In this document: positions 1,640 through 7,693 of the stretch, in pieces
How the letters are laid out: each line of letters begins with the position of its first letter
Position numbering within the stretch: position 1 is the stretch's first letter
Origin: a bacterium
Lineage (GTDB): Bacteria > SM23-31 > JAUVVT01
DNA length: 7,980 nucleotides
Assembly: GCA_030616165.1 (NCBI GenBank)
Contig: JAUWXV010000172.1
Coordinates: 1-7,980, forward strand
Direction: 5' to 3'
Program-made: the position numbers and the translations under genes
Notes under the pieces: generated by a model
Databases searched by the model: none
What the model saw: only the letters and a program-made list of their open reading frames with translations
Told to the model about the DNA's origin: nothing

Positions 1640-4336
1640 TCATTCATCTCCCCCCAAACCCACCCTCACAGGCCCCATCAGCCCCGAAGGCAGTGGCTCC
1701 CACCCGGAAGCATCAAACCGTTTATAATCTATATTAACAAAAAAATATTTCCTCCATTCCTCACCTCTCCTGTCGAGTTCAATAATCCTATTCGCCATAA
1801 GATTTCTCACTTTTATCTGCATAATATTTTCACCCTGCCTGCTCTTATCTGTTATATCCAGTGTATAGGGCGTAGTCCATACCGCACCTGCAAACTCTCC
1901 GTTAACAAAAATTTCAGCAGATTCATGCATTTCACCCAGATTCAAAGTAACTCTCTTCCCTGTATCATCGTCAGCAATTTCAAAACTTGTCTGGTATTCC
2001 ATCTCTCCTGAAAACAATTCAGTTTCTTTCCAATCTGTCCATGACACCAATTGCGATATACTTTTAGAATGCTCTTCACCATCATAATCCTGCCACGATA
2101 CCTTCCAGGGACCTTTGAGCGGAATTTCCGAAACAGATGCCATACTTTTCTCTGATTGAATATAATCATATCTGTTATTTTTATCTGCCAATAAAAGAAG
2201 AGTTGATTGCGGTTCCATCTTTAAATGGATTTCAATCCCTTTATTATTATTCAGTGTCTCTGCTTTATAAATCTCACCTGTTAAAGGTTCTCCAATAATA
2301 ACCGCATTCCCGTCACAATTCAAACTTATCCATTTATCAATATTCTTATCACTAAAATTTTTCATATAATAAAGTTTACTGTCAGAATTACGCAGCCGAA
2401 TAAATTTCAAACTTTCATCAATAAATTTCTCATTTTCTATTTTTAATCTCATAAGAACTTCGGGAAGTTCATCAACAGAATTAACGAGAAAAAGTGATTC
2501 ATACTTTTCAGAATATTCCTCTAAAATTTCGCTCTCAGATTCTTCCTGAATACTATCCGGCGAACCTCTTTCAACAGCCGAGGGAATATTTCCTATGAAA
2601 ATAATATTTACTCCTTCATCGAGTAATTGTCTGACTTTCTTTAATGTTTTTTCTTCAATAAATTGCGCCCCGGCAAATATGAGCGCCTTATAACGCATAT
2701 CACCGCATAGTATATCTCTTTTATTTGCCGCAAGCATTTCAGTAATGACTTTATCGGAAACATAATCAAACTGCCATCCTCTTTCTTGCAGCATATTGGC
2801 TGTTTCCCAGGTCAATCCTGCTGCTCTTTGAAACGAACCTTTTGCGAAATTGACTCCCAAAAATTGCAGCAAATCAGCCGCCCTTGGATTATCATGCCAC
2901 ACGTCATGCATCGGAAAATAAAGCATCACATCAGCATCAAATTGATTTGCCTGTAAGGCAGACTGAATTCGTCCAATGTATTCATTTAGATAATGCACAT
3001 GCGGCCACCATGTGTTTGTTTCTCCGGCATGAGTCGAAGCATAAAAAACAGCTCCCGGGAAACTATCCCCGGGTTGACTGAAAGGAACACCATGATAGAA
3101 AATATGATTAATACCTGCAAGAAAAAATTTATCAACACTTTTTTTCATCCTGTCGAGACTGACCTGAAAATGTTCATCAAGCCAGGTAAATGTTTCGGAC
3201 GAACAAAACTTCTTTCCATAAAGGTGGGCTGCCGAAGAAGCAAACTTCCCGAAAAGTATATCAATCTCTTCTCTTCCGAACCCTTCCGTCTCGGGAATGT
3301 CAGATATACCATAAAGGTCGACAAGATTCCCCGGAGCACCGTGTGCTTGAAATCTGTTTTGCATGTGATTCTTATGTGACCATTCAGTCCAGGGAATACA
3401 AAATTGTTCCACGTACAGCGAATATACAGTCTCTCTATAATCATGGAGTAATTTTCGCCTTATTTTTGAGTCTGTTTTGTCAATTAAAATCGGGATATAA
3501 TTTCTGAGGTCATATCCATGAAGACTATGAAATGCCGTAAAAAGTTCGGGTGTCCAGTTTGCATTGTAAACTTCGTATGAATCGTTAAAGTTACATCTCG
3601 GTCTCATTTGACCGATGTTGTTGTTTAATTCGTTAAAAGGCTGAACGTAATTGTCAAAAGCAGAACGTGAAAAATGGTCGAGTACACCTCCTTCCGAGCC
3701 AACGGTTGCACGCTTTACCTGCTGACCGGTATATCCAATCTTAACTGCATAAACCCTCCATCTGCCCGGGGGAATTGTCCAGTATTTTTGACCGTTATCT
3801 TTTTTAAACTCCAGAATCTCCCCTTTAACGGAAGGCTCATCCCGGGGAACCAGAATCACTGATTCTATAGGCTCCTTTGAATCATCAATAATTTTCCTTT
3901 CAGTATCACTTTCAGAATATACAGATTGTGTAACCTCCAACTTACGTGCTGCATTCTGCGGTTCCAGCCAGGGACCTCCAAAGGGCCAGCCGCTTCCTAA
4001 TGTTAAATCCACGCCAATTCCCAATCGCTCAGCTTCTTTAAGCGTAAAAAGAAAAACCTCCCCCCATCTTTTTGATAAATATGTTATTGGTTTTATCGGA
4101 GAATCCTTTTCGGGATAAATCGGCTGGATTTCAACACCTCCAAAGCCTGCTTTTTTCAATTCCTTTAATTGACGGGATATTTCACTCTCGTTTACACTGC
4201 TTCCCAGCCACCACCATCTCGCCCAGGGCTTCGCTTGAGAATCAATGTTGTCCCAGTGAAAAGGATGACCTGTCTCTATGTTCTTTGAACATGAGAATAA
4301 TACAATAAACAATATAAATATTCCTTTAATTCGCAT
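1640..4336 (-). CDS. GH106-type alpha-L-rhamnosidase-like lipoprotein
   Basis: The product has 898 residues, near the usual GH106 range. GH106 enzymes are inverting, calcium-dependent exo-alpha-L-rhamnosidases acting on pectic rhamnogalacturonans and other rhamnose-rich glycans. A hydrophobic start ending in the lipobox LFSC (Cys16) marks a lipoprotein on the periplasmic or outer-membrane side. Family-like elements follow in order: ARWWWLGSSV (39-48) opening the barrel, GGVEIQPIYP (66-75), LGSGWPFGGPWL (113-124), DIPETEGFG (346-354) and SSETFTW (379-385). The glutamates at 349/351 and 381 are the best catalytic candidates. A Rossmann-like segment covers about 540-640. A C-terminal GH2-like sugar-binding beta-sandwich (about 735-890) holds VNGEFAGAVWTTPYTLDI (811-828). 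The ATG at 4336 follows AGGA with six bases between. The frame is intact and ends in TGA. Exact substrate is unknown; GH106 is inferred from motifs. Confidence 0.85.
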   Translation of the reverse strand: MRIKGIFILFIVLFSCSKNIETGHPFHWDNIDSQAKPWARWWWLGSSVNESEISRQLKELKKAGFGGVEIQPIYPEKDSPIKPITYLSKRWGEVFLFTLKEAERLGIGVDLTLGSGWPFGGPWLEPQNAARKLEVTQSVYSESDTERKIIDDSKEPIESVILVPRDEPSVKGEILEFKKDNGQKYWTIPPGRWRVYAVKIGYTGQQVKRATVGSEGGVLDHFSRSAFDNYVQPFNELNNNIGQMRPRCNFNDSYEVYNANWTPELFTAFHSLHGYDLRNYIPILIDKTDSKIRRKLLHDYRETVYSLYVEQFCIPWTEWSHKNHMQNRFQAHGAPGNLVDLYGISDIPETEGFGREEIDILFGKFASSAAHLYGKKFCSSETFTWLDEHFQVSLDRMKKSVDKFFLAGINHIFYHGVPFSQPGDSFPGAVFYASTHAGETNTWWPHVHYLNEYIGRIQSALQANQFDADVMLYFPMHDVWHDNPRAADLLQFLGVNFAKGSFQRAAGLTWETANMLQERGWQFDYVSDKVITEMLAANKRDILCGDMRYKALIFAGAQFIEEKTLKKVRQLLDEGVNIIFIGNIPSAVERGSPDSIQEESESEILEEYSEKYESLFLVNSVDELPEVLMRLKIENEKFIDESLKFIRLRNSDSKLYYMKNFSDKNIDKWISLNCDGNAVIIGEPLTGEIYKAETLNNNKGIEIHLKMEPQSTLLLLADKNNRYDYIQSEKSMASVSEIPLKGPWKVSWQDYDGEEHSKSISQLVSWTDWKETELFSGEMEYQTSFEIADDDTGKRVTLNLGEMHESAEIFVNGEFAGAVWTTPYTLDITDKSRQGENIMQIKVRNLMANRIIELDRRGEEWRKYFFVNIDYKRFDASGWEPLPSGLMGPVRVGLGGDE

Positions 4337-4706: not shown

Positions 4707-4736
4707 CACAAAGCTAGTAATAAATACCAATCATCT

Positions 4737-6620
4737 TTATCGTTTCAAATTATCGATTTGCGCCCTTAAATCTTGTGCATCGGGGTCAAGTTTAAGTGCT
4801 TTTTCAAATTCACTTATCGCCTGTGCTTTGTTACCAATTTTTAAATATAAATTACCCAGCTCAATATAACCCTGGATATTTGAAGGCACAAGAGATAATG
4901 CTTTATTGTACATTGAAATTGCTTCAGGGATGGTTTTATTATCCAATGAAAGCACCCTGCCGAGCATAAAACATACGTTGGGATTATTTGGATTTGCCTG
5001 ATAAACGGTTCGGAATGCCCTTTCCGCTTTATCGTATTCTTTCTTCATCATATATATTATTCCAAGTTCATAGTGAGCACTGACAAAAAAAGGATTAAGT
5101 CTCAAAGCACTTACAAATTTCATTTCTGCTTTCTCGTATTCTTTCTTCATCCTGTATATTATTCCAAGTTCATAGTGAGCACCAACAAACAGAGCATCAA
5201 GTTTTAAAGCAGTTTCAAATTTCATTTCCGCTTTCTCATACTCTTTTCTATTCATGTAAACCATTCCCAGATTCAGGTGAGCACTGGCATGCTCAGGGTC
5301 AAGTTTTATGGCAGTCTCAAATTCCATTTCTGCTTTCTCGTACTCGCCTTTCGATAATAGTATTAATCCCAATCCCTCATAAGCATCAGCATACTCTGGC
5401 TCAAGTTTTAACGCGGTTCCAAATTCCATTTCTGCTTTCTCATTCTCGTTTCTATTCAGGTAAACTTTTCCCAGATTCAGGTGAGCACTAACACTCTCGG
5501 GGTCAAGTTTTAAAGCAGTCTCCAGTTCTATTTGTGCTTCATCGAGTTCGCCTTTCGATAATAGTATCATTCCTAACCAATCATGGGCTAATGCATGCTC
5601 TGGATTGAGTTCTATAGATTTTCTGAATGACTTTTCGGCTTCTTCGTATTTTCCCGACAACATAAAATCGCCGCCTTCTCTTGCATATGAATAATAATCA
5701 AGGAAAGATTCGTGCATTTGTCGTATACCACCCGCTTTTATGTTTGCAAATTCCGGAATATTGGCAGCCCTGTCGGGATCAGTGAAGTTGGACAGCAGGA
5801 CCGGTGGACTGTCATTACCTTCTTCATCGATGTGCGTAAGAAAAAGTTGGGTGTAAGGAGTAAAAACCTTGGATGAAAATACCAGCCACTTGCCGTTTGG
5901 TGACCAACTGTGCCAGGAATTCATTTGATTGGTGTTGCATCTCATCTCTCTGGCAACTCCTCCCTCCGCAGGCATTATATATAGTTTACTGTCGGGCTGA
6001 AGTAGCATAAAACTGTTGGCTTTGCAAAAAACTATCCACTTCCCGTCAGGAGAATATTTTGCAAAATAATTACTCATCCCGTCACCCGATGCACCTGCAA
6101 GAGGCTTAGCCTCCCCACCTTTACCATCATTAAAGGGTATCCTGTATAAATCATACCGAAATTTTTTCCCTCCCGTAAGGTAGTCCTCGCAGTCCTCTTT
6201 TGATAGAACCACTTTATTACCAATTTCTCGCAGGGAATCCGCTTTATTTCTGGCAAAAACAATGTACTTACCATCAGGGCTCCACGCTGGATTGCTCTGT
6301 ACAAATCTCTTGTCATCCGCTCCGGGCAGCGCCTGGAAAGAACCCGTTTCCTTATTATAGTAAGCAAGAATGCCTTTGAGCGGGAAAAATAATTGGGAGT
6401 AGTAAAGGTCCGAAACCGGGACAAATACTGATCTGTCTTTGACTGTACTTACTGTATATTTTCCATCAGGTGATATCTGGGAAAGCAAACCAAAAGTCAA
6501 TTCCTGGTCTTCTCTTTTATAATCAGTCCAGGTAATTATTTTATTTTTAGTGAGCATTATATCTTCGGAAACCCTGGTAATTATATACGAACCCTTATCA
6601 TTAGCGTAATCCACATCCAT
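4737..6620 (-). CDS. PD40 propeller + TPR protein, C-terminal part of a split gene
   Basis: This 627-codon frame continues, in the same frame, the 201-codon frame ending at 6621; only a TGA separates them. Residues 1-10 (MDVDYANDKG) look like the interior of a protein, not a natural start, and no good ribosome binding site precedes the ATG at 6620. PD40/TolB-like propeller blades recur at SPDGKYTVSTVK (50-61), SPDGKYIVFARN (114-125), SPDGKWIVFCK (190-200) and SPNGKWLVFSSK (240-251). A conserved tail follows: PYTQLFLTHIDEEGNDSPP (255-273) and NIPEFANI (287-294). Nine TPR units fill about 309-615, consistent with protein binding. Without the first part this piece lacks the membrane anchor and CxxCH, so it would be cytoplasmic if made by reinitiation. 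Stop TAA. The function of the full-length family is unknown to me. Confidence 0.8.
   Translation of the reverse strand: MDVDYANDKGSYIITRVSEDIMLTKNKIITWTDYKREDQELTFGLLSQISPDGKYTVSTVKDRSVFVPVSDLYYSQLFFPLKGILAYYNKETGSFQALPGADDKRFVQSNPAWSPDGKYIVFARNKADSLREIGNKVVLSKEDCEDYLTGGKKFRYDLYRIPFNDGKGGEAKPLAGASGDGMSNYFAKYSPDGKWIVFCKANSFMLLQPDSKLYIMPAEGGVAREMRCNTNQMNSWHSWSPNGKWLVFSSKVFTPYTQLFLTHIDEEGNDSPPVLLSNFTDPDRAANIPEFANIKAGGIRQMHESFLDYYSYAREGGDFMLSGKYEEAEKSFRKSIELNPEHALAHDWLGMILLSKGELDEAQIELETALKLDPESVSAHLNLGKVYLNRNENEKAEMEFGTALKLEPEYADAYEGLGLILLSKGEYEKAEMEFETAIKLDPEHASAHLNLGMVYMNRKEYEKAEMKFETALKLDALFVGAHYELGIIYRMKKEYEKAEMKFVSALRLNPFFVSAHYELGIIYMMKKEYDKAERAFRTVYQANPNNPNVCFMLGRVLSLDNKTIPEAISMYNKALSLVPSNIQGYIELGNLYLKIGNKAQAISEFEKALKLDPDAQDLRAQIDNLKR
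4776..5696 (-). repeat. Nine tandem TPR units with recent 102- and 204-bp duplications
   Basis: The TPRs cover residues 309-615 of the 627-codon frame. Most units are 34 codons (102 bp); unit 8 has 35. A 20-base match at 5344-5363 recurs at 5548-5567, and the block starting at 5266 recurs at 5470, both 204 bp apart. So a two-TPR unit (LLSKGE type plus NLGxVYxNR type) was duplicated. The 25 bases at 5056-5080 recur exactly at 5158-5182, a 102-bp step duplicating the HYELGIIY type unit. Confidence 0.8.
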
Positions 6621-6623
6621 TCA
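6618..6623 (-). other. In-frame TGA followed directly by ATG splitting the CxxCH-PD40-TPR gene
   Basis: The minus strand reads ...AAT TAT TTA TGA ATG GAT GTG GAT..., so the protein would read NYL-stop-MDVDY. In relatives I recall, the segment reads CGNCHSF-ADG--LGMD, with glycine at the stop. GGA to TGA is one base change (+ strand 6623, C to A). TGA is also the stop of the four other intact genes here, so the code is standard. Nonsense mutation, sequencing error or readthrough/reinitiation remain possible. Confidence 0.8.
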
Positions 6624-7226
6624 TAAATAATTTCCATCAGCAGTAAATGAATGACAATTCCCGCACACCGTCATATTTTCCAGTATCACTGGTGGGGGCT
6701 CATCTGAGGATATATCGCCCAAACGCCACTTTATTTCATCCTTGTGGTCGACCGCATACTCAAACGGAAGAGGAACATCACGATAAAATATTGGTGCACC
6801 AACCTCATCAATCGATGTTTTTATTGAGATAGTCTTCTTCGAGAGGAACCTTTTCACACCAACTATCTTTTTAAAACCCAGAATTGTAACCTTGGCTCTC
6901 TTTTCTAAAGTTCTCTCCTTTGCAGACTCCCAAATATCTCTTTTTGGAGTCCATTCCATTGAGGATGTTTGAACTTCTATTAGTTCATTTGGTTCTTGGA
7001 ATTCAAAACGAAGAATCCAACTATTGGCGCCTGATTTATCATCCCATCGAAAAGTAGGGGACGCAATCTCAGGTGGGAAAAGGGAATCATCAAACGGGTA
7101 GATAATTGATAACTCCTTTAAAAAAGAATCAGGTAGAAAAGGATAAAAAATCCCGTTAAACAAAACAATAATCAGAATAATAAACAACACAATAAATAAA
7201 ATAATAAATTTAATTCTATTCGACAT
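6621..7226 (-). CDS. Membrane-anchored CxxCH protein, N-terminal part of a split PD40-TPR gene
   Basis: The frame has 201 codons. One strongly hydrophobic segment (about residues 6-30) anchors the N-terminus with the rest probably periplasmic. A beta-rich domain follows with FPPEIASPTFRWDD (50-63) and SWILRFEF (69-76). Near the end is VCGNCHSFTADG (187-198), whose CxxCH (Cys188, Cys191, His192) is a c-type haem attachment motif. The frame ends three residues later at TGA and resumes in frame at 6620 as a PD40 propeller plus TPRs; together they make about 829 codons (4737-7226). The ATG at 7226 has AAAAGG eight bases upstream. The frame stays open for about 25 further codons upstream but offers no ATG or GTG, so 7226 is the best start. 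Alone, this product would lack the propeller. Family identity rests on remembered similarity. Confidence 0.75.
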   Translation of the reverse strand: MSNRIKFIILFIVLFIILIIVLFNGIFYPFLPDSFLKELSIIYPFDDSLFPPEIASPTFRWDDKSGANSWILRFEFQEPNELIEVQTSSMEWTPKRDIWESAKERTLEKRAKVTILGFKKIVGVKRFLSKKTISIKTSIDEVGAPIFYRDVPLPFEYAVDHKDEIKWRLGDISSDEPPPVILENMTVCGNCHSFTADGNYL

Positions 7227-7349
7227 ATTTAAAACCTTTTCATTAATCGGCTTTTTTGTTTCAGGTTCTTCAGGAATTTTATTTTCAATGAATCTTTATG
7301 TTAACGGTGTGTTTAGGCAAATCAAATCCATTCCCCCGCTGCAGGATCT

Positions 7350-7420
7350 GTAGAGGCGAAGCATTTTTTATATATGCCGTAAATTTTTCGAAAACTCTTC
7401 ATTTAAATGCTTCACCCCTA
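7350..7420. repeat. Imperfect inverted repeat, MITE- or REP-like
   Basis: TAGAGGCGAAGCATTT (7351-7366) pairs with AAATGCTTCACCCCTA (7405-7420) at 14 of 16 positions across a 38-bp AT-rich centre. I recall GTAGGGGCGAAGCATT-type inverted repeats as dispersed elements in many genomes, often mistaken for short genes encoding phrases like FSKTLHLNASPL. That phrase appears in the plus-strand translation here. No transposase is nearby, so mobility, if any, would be in trans. Confidence 0.6.
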
Positions 7421-7693
7421 TTCCGCTTATTTCCTGATGAACTTAAATTTATCACAAAATGTATCGTTATTATCGAGAAGTTTGTCGGTGCTGCTCTGTT
7501 TTTTTTTGGCGTTGAATACACCATTAAAAACAGAAATTTAAGATTTGGATTTTCCTATCATAGATGTGCTCTTCATTAAGCTGGACCATAAATAATTATA
7601 AAAAAAGAATAATGAATTTTTCCATCAATCGCAAGTAAAATATATGAAAATTCTCTCTTATTTATTTAGATGATACCCATCTTTTTATTCGTC

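Follow-up and report, generated by a model that had tools for sequence, protein, structure and literature searches.

A premature stop codon in one of four paralogous genes

In the 7,980-bp stretch of DNA analyzed here (the window), a gene for a membrane-anchored CxxCH/PD40 (TolB-like) propeller/TPR protein is interrupted by one in-frame TGA, and this copy is probably a very young pseudogene created when one of four paralogues recently acquired a nonsense mutation. A single G-to-T change would have made a true UGA stop out of the GGA codon of a conserved glycine. The ribosome would most likely terminate there, leaving a fragment of 201 residues without the TPRs and with almost none of the propeller, and the three intact copies could cover the job of the lost one. 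We infer that the organism truly carries this base and that the product does not function. The window is the entire contig C266 of a 3.74-Mb draft genome, which consists of 343 contigs and is 90% complete. The following features were identified:

4731..4739, minus strand: TAA AGA TGA end of the gene, where a CAA-to-TAA change stops the frame two codons ahead of the paralogues' stop
4737..6620, minus strand: downstream frame of 627 aa, PD40 propeller followed by TPR repeats
6618..6620, minus strand: ATG immediately 3' of the TGA, an inherited Met codon and a possible but unspecialised reinitiation site
6621..6623, minus strand: in-frame TGA where relatives have Gly, Ala or Ser and the three paralogues have GGA
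6621..7226, minus strand: N-terminal fragment of 201 codons plus TGA, with a hydrophobic N-terminal anchor, a beta-rich region and CGNCH
6651..6665, minus strand: CGNCH (CxxCH) motif, in which C, N, C and H are invariant in 79 aligned relatives
7266..7441, no strand: repeat insertion of about 176 bp that separates the start codon from the conserved upstream region and is lacking in all three paralogues (ends uncertain by about 5 bp)
7443..7661, minus strand: leader/promoter region conserved with the three paralogues

The coding parts 7226-6624 and 6620-4740 form one minus-strand frame with the single TGA (6623-6621) between them, and the sequence across the junction is CGNCHSFTADGNYL-stop-MDVDYANDKG. 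The first-pass annotation had placed the open reading frames 7226-6621 (201 aa) and 6620-4737 (627 aa) in the same frame, and the TGA alone does separate the two. The features of the CxxCH-PD40-TPR family are all present (CGNCH, propeller signature and TPR array). Against a profile of relatives the downstream half scored 592 bits, compared to 585-596 bits for the paralogues; since this is the score of a full family member, its homology is not due to chance. The N-terminal fragment alone gave no Pfam, NCBIfam or PDB sequence match. With respect to c-type cytochromes, CxxCH was seen as a motif that is invariant in the relatives, and covalent haem attachment is putative. An annotation of the genome would show two "genes" in place of one broken gene.

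Paralogues and relatives carry glycine, alanine, or serine at the stop

Three intact homologues were found in the same genome, on contigs C158, C222, and C317, with identities of 93, 91, and 91% over the propeller half. All three run uninterrupted for about 800-830 codons and have GGA (Gly) at the position of the stop. Two of them are located near CarboxypepD_reg/TonB-receptor-like outer membrane proteins. Counted from the first base of the stop, the window agrees fully with the C222 copy (L003) over the 42 preceding and the 28 following nt, so that one base alone differs around the stop. The resulting 71-nt tract, matching C222 with one mismatch, could reflect local gene conversion, which does not supply the T.

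Among 86 relatives from public genomes of many phyla, a tally that took in stop-free relatives aligned across the site, the residue at the stop position was Gly in 58, Ala in 27, and Ser in one. The following residue was Met in 80 and Leu in six. An unfiltered tblastn survey of all loci gave no stop at the site except in the window copy. The continuous homologue proposed in the first-pass annotation is therefore real, as the three paralogues and 86/86 aligned relatives read straight through the site. Its proposal of a single GGA-to-TGA change at an expected glycine likewise agrees with GGA in the paralogues, Gly/Ala/Ser in the relatives and a frame that is otherwise open. No second-strain orthologue showing the change as fixed was found.

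As in nonsense pseudogenes, the premature stop stands where homologues are continuous, and intact copies exist. The window gene resembles a young nonsense pseudogene of a multicopy bacterial family in its single-base premature stop, the open frame beyond it, the intact paralogues and the little decay; nothing essential differs, and in the window gene an ATG happens to adjoin the stop.

The real gene would instead be intact if the assembly or its consensus were wrong at this base, as the first-pass annotation also considered, or if a metagenome-type assembly had picked up the base of a minority strain; we consider this unlikely, though not far-fetched. The draft is fragmented, the window is one whole contig, four close paralogues could be mixed, and the gene has no other frame-breaking lesion inside it and no sign of relaxed selection. 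However, the window copy is no patchwork of the other copies, differing from each by 11-15% overall, and no paralogue has a T at the site, so mixed reads would not by themselves give rise to the stop. A chimeric assembly from the paralogues was rejected, since over most of its length the window copy diverges from each of the three. We ranked the nonsense mutation first, an assembly or strain artefact second and a restart of translation third, with selenocysteine and recoding each given almost no weight.

The family is widespread in many phyla. The search through named genomes turned up 80 loci, which belong to Planctomycetota, Latescibacterota, Elusimicrobia, KSB1, Verrucomicrobia, Lentisphaeria, Bacteroidota, Myxococcales, Binatota, Fibrobacteres, and others. 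Two family copies lie close together in several genomes (L063, L067, L069, L077, L098, and L011/L032).

The downstream half still shows the marks of purifying selection

Pairwise dN/dS over the propeller half was 0.07-0.11 in all pairs, those with the window copy among them. Changes unique to the window copy in this half were silent in 25 cases and replacing in five; there was no excess of replacing changes, and purifying selection is still visible. From these counts the neutral share of the branch leading to the window copy is at most about 5-10%. The probability of five or fewer replacing changes is 0.04 if 5% of the branch was neutral and 0.003 if 10% was, in a simple Poisson estimate that assumes a background dN/dS of 0.08 and counts the window-unique changes as the window copy's own.

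Given the dN/dS, the unique changes and the profile score, either the break is recent, or the base call is mistaken, or the downstream half continues to be produced, and the data fit these three alike. The kept codon constraint counts against the pseudogene reading to the extent that it is equally expected if the gene is still translated or the base is wrong. That any inactivation had to be recent, as first suggested from the open downstream frame, is supported in that the frame is open and any relaxation of selection is late.

The UGA is very unlikely to be a selenocysteine codon

The genome encodes a tRNA-Sec (70 bits; anticodon UCA) and selB (353 bits), both on contig C100. It also carries a convincing UGA-containing gene for the alpha subunit of formate dehydrogenase on contig C53 (L233:13435-16494, minus strand), with the in-frame TGA at 15915-15913 inside the Molybdopterin domain. 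With the TGA read as Sec, this fdhA scored 1341 bits against TIGR01553. Selenocysteine therefore needed testing in the window gene, and fdhA, which would itself be mis-annotated as two genes, served as the internal positive control.

In bacteria the SECIS element lies immediately downstream of the Sec UGA and has a small apical loop containing a G (PMC1088965); the same survey required mostly Cys homologues. The RNA following the fdhA UGA was predicted to form a long, strong hairpin of -16.7 kcal/mol with a 3-nt loop, whereas the RNA following the window TGA gave -5.8 kcal/mol, no better than shuffled sequences. The z-score of the fdhA control was -0.5, which is not significant alone, and the contrast with the window rests on the strength and shape of the hairpin. 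No SECIS-like hairpin was found just 3' of the window TGA. The weak structure of the window is shared by the GGA paralogues, the next 28 nt being identical in one of them, and none of the 86 relatives has Cys at the stop site. The window gene is thus like bacterial selenoprotein genes such as fdhA in that a TGA interrupts its frame and the genome encodes selB and tRNA-Sec, but it differs in lacking Cys homologues and a SECIS-like hairpin and in having the TGA at a Gly/Ala/Ser position. Reading of the window UGA as selenocysteine is accordingly very improbable.

A reassigned UGA, read as glycine or some other amino acid as in Gracilibacteria/Absconditabacteria (code 25), would suit the lost residue, which is Gly. 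We regard it as scarcely credible, since RF2 is present in the genome, the intact paralogues themselves end at TGA, and of the 523 long open frames in the 1.09 Mb of the genome that were sampled, 145 end at TGA. The anticodons of the Gly tRNAs found are GCC, TCC, and CCC, and among the tRNAs examined in this incomplete genome, in which no Trp tRNA was seen, the only UCA anticodon was that of tRNA-Sec. General recoding of UGA is in practice excluded. The first-pass suggestion that the stop might be bypassed was consequently not upheld: no SECIS was found, the examined tRNAs include none but tRNA-Sec with a UCA anticodon, UGA serves as a normal stop here, and no relative has Cys.

The comparison illustrates cleanly how, where the genome has Sec machinery, paralogues, relatives and an internal positive control (fdhA) can tell such a TGA from a real Sec codon. 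Beyond its value for the selenocysteine test and for annotation, the split gene is ordinary.

Restart at the adjacent ATG

The ATG that follows the TGA could allow ribosomes to stop at the TGA and restart at once, so that the locus would be a natural arrangement of two translationally coupled proteins. The TGA-ATG adjacency is a layout compatible with this, and the downstream frame is constrained. Nevertheless we find it improbable. No relative among the 86 is split, which also speaks against the natural gene pair considered in the first-pass annotation. The Met proposed there as a restart site is an inherited internal residue, given Met in 80 and Leu in six of the relatives; the ATG is no new start, and the TGA-ATG pair is accidental. 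The sequence upstream contains only a weak GGA, 12 nt away and itself an inherited Gly codon.

The consequence for the protein was considered on a predicted model of an intact relative (L040, residues 1-545; pLDDT 93.4, pTM 0.91). The model has a helix at the N terminus, a region rich in beta strands and a propeller whose closest match is TolB (Z about 27, rmsd about 3, 273-277 residues). CxxCH (184-188) lies on the strand 185-190 and the stop-site Gly 198 on the next strand, 196-201; from the order of strands, both would belong to blade 1 of the propeller. As the two strands neighbour each other, the stop is predicted to cut one blade in two. The upstream fragment would then be an anchored stub, and a restarted product would lack both the N-terminal membrane segment and part of blade 1. 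A division of blade 1 between the two products, one of them without the anchor, argues against a functional pair. Reinitiation had first been put forward as a way of separating a membrane/haem part from a propeller/TPR part; the TGA-ATG adjacency is there, but in the predicted fold the split falls within a strand of blade 1 with CxxCH on the neighbouring strand, and the proposed separation would not hold. It is similarly doubtful that the stop is real and lasting but partly bypassed, by restart at the ATG or by a leaky UGA, to give a truncated anchored fragment and a second propeller-TPR product with a role of its own.

The predicted propeller of the intact relative matches that of TolB-type PD40 proteins (PF07676; E. 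coli TolB fold), whereas this family has in addition a membrane anchor, CxxCH in blade 1 and a C-terminal TPR array. The equivalog for TolB of Tol-Pal was not matched, a paralogue scoring 34.5 bits against a cut-off of 343. The L040 propeller also resembles a chain of hydrazine synthase (5c2v_A; Z 23.5, rmsd 3.7, 288 residues, 12% identity), which is a haem enzyme.

Other split genes in the genome

The 1.09-Mb sample of the genome was also the basis for a count of split genes. It contained 25 places where two frames of at least 120 codons are joined by one stop, 11 with TAA, nine with TGA, and five with TAG. Nine of the 24 junctions other than that of the window gene were domain-scanned, and most of the 24 are not shown to be split genes. 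A domain crossed the stop in three of the nine: a Ser/Thr kinase-PD40 gene on C204 (L199:2304-2302, minus strand) and a sulfatase gene on C54 (L234:4920-4922, plus strand), each with one in-frame TAG inside a Pfam domain, and the Sec codon of fdhA on C53. As the domain-crossing junctions on C204 and C54 are TAG, nonsense-split genes occur at a low rate and with different stops. A match on C129 with two TGAs was rejected as a second case, since it lies out of frame, close to the end of a different PD40 protein.

Leader insertion, early end, and neighbouring genes

Two further changes are peculiar to the window copy. The segment of about 176 bp sits between the upstream region shared with the paralogues and the start codon. 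It is a composite insertion, of which a 73-bp intergenic palindromic repeat (window 7349-7421; GGGGCGAAGCATT...AATGCTTCGCCCC) forms part; the repeat occurs at about 17 other places in the genome (G000). The second is the CAA-to-TAA change at the end of the gene, and the resulting loss of two residues is probably harmless. Both fit a weakly constrained copy, and neither is proof of it; the insertion need not silence the gene. A promoter scan of the leader gave matches at chance level only.

The same contig carries a near-full-length GH106-type rhamnosidase (1640-4336). A role of the family protein in glycan uptake or breakdown would be a guess from the neighbouring genes. A small ORF resembling HicB/UPF0150-like antitoxins, below the Pfam cut-off, is located at 1204-1410 of the window on the minus strand.
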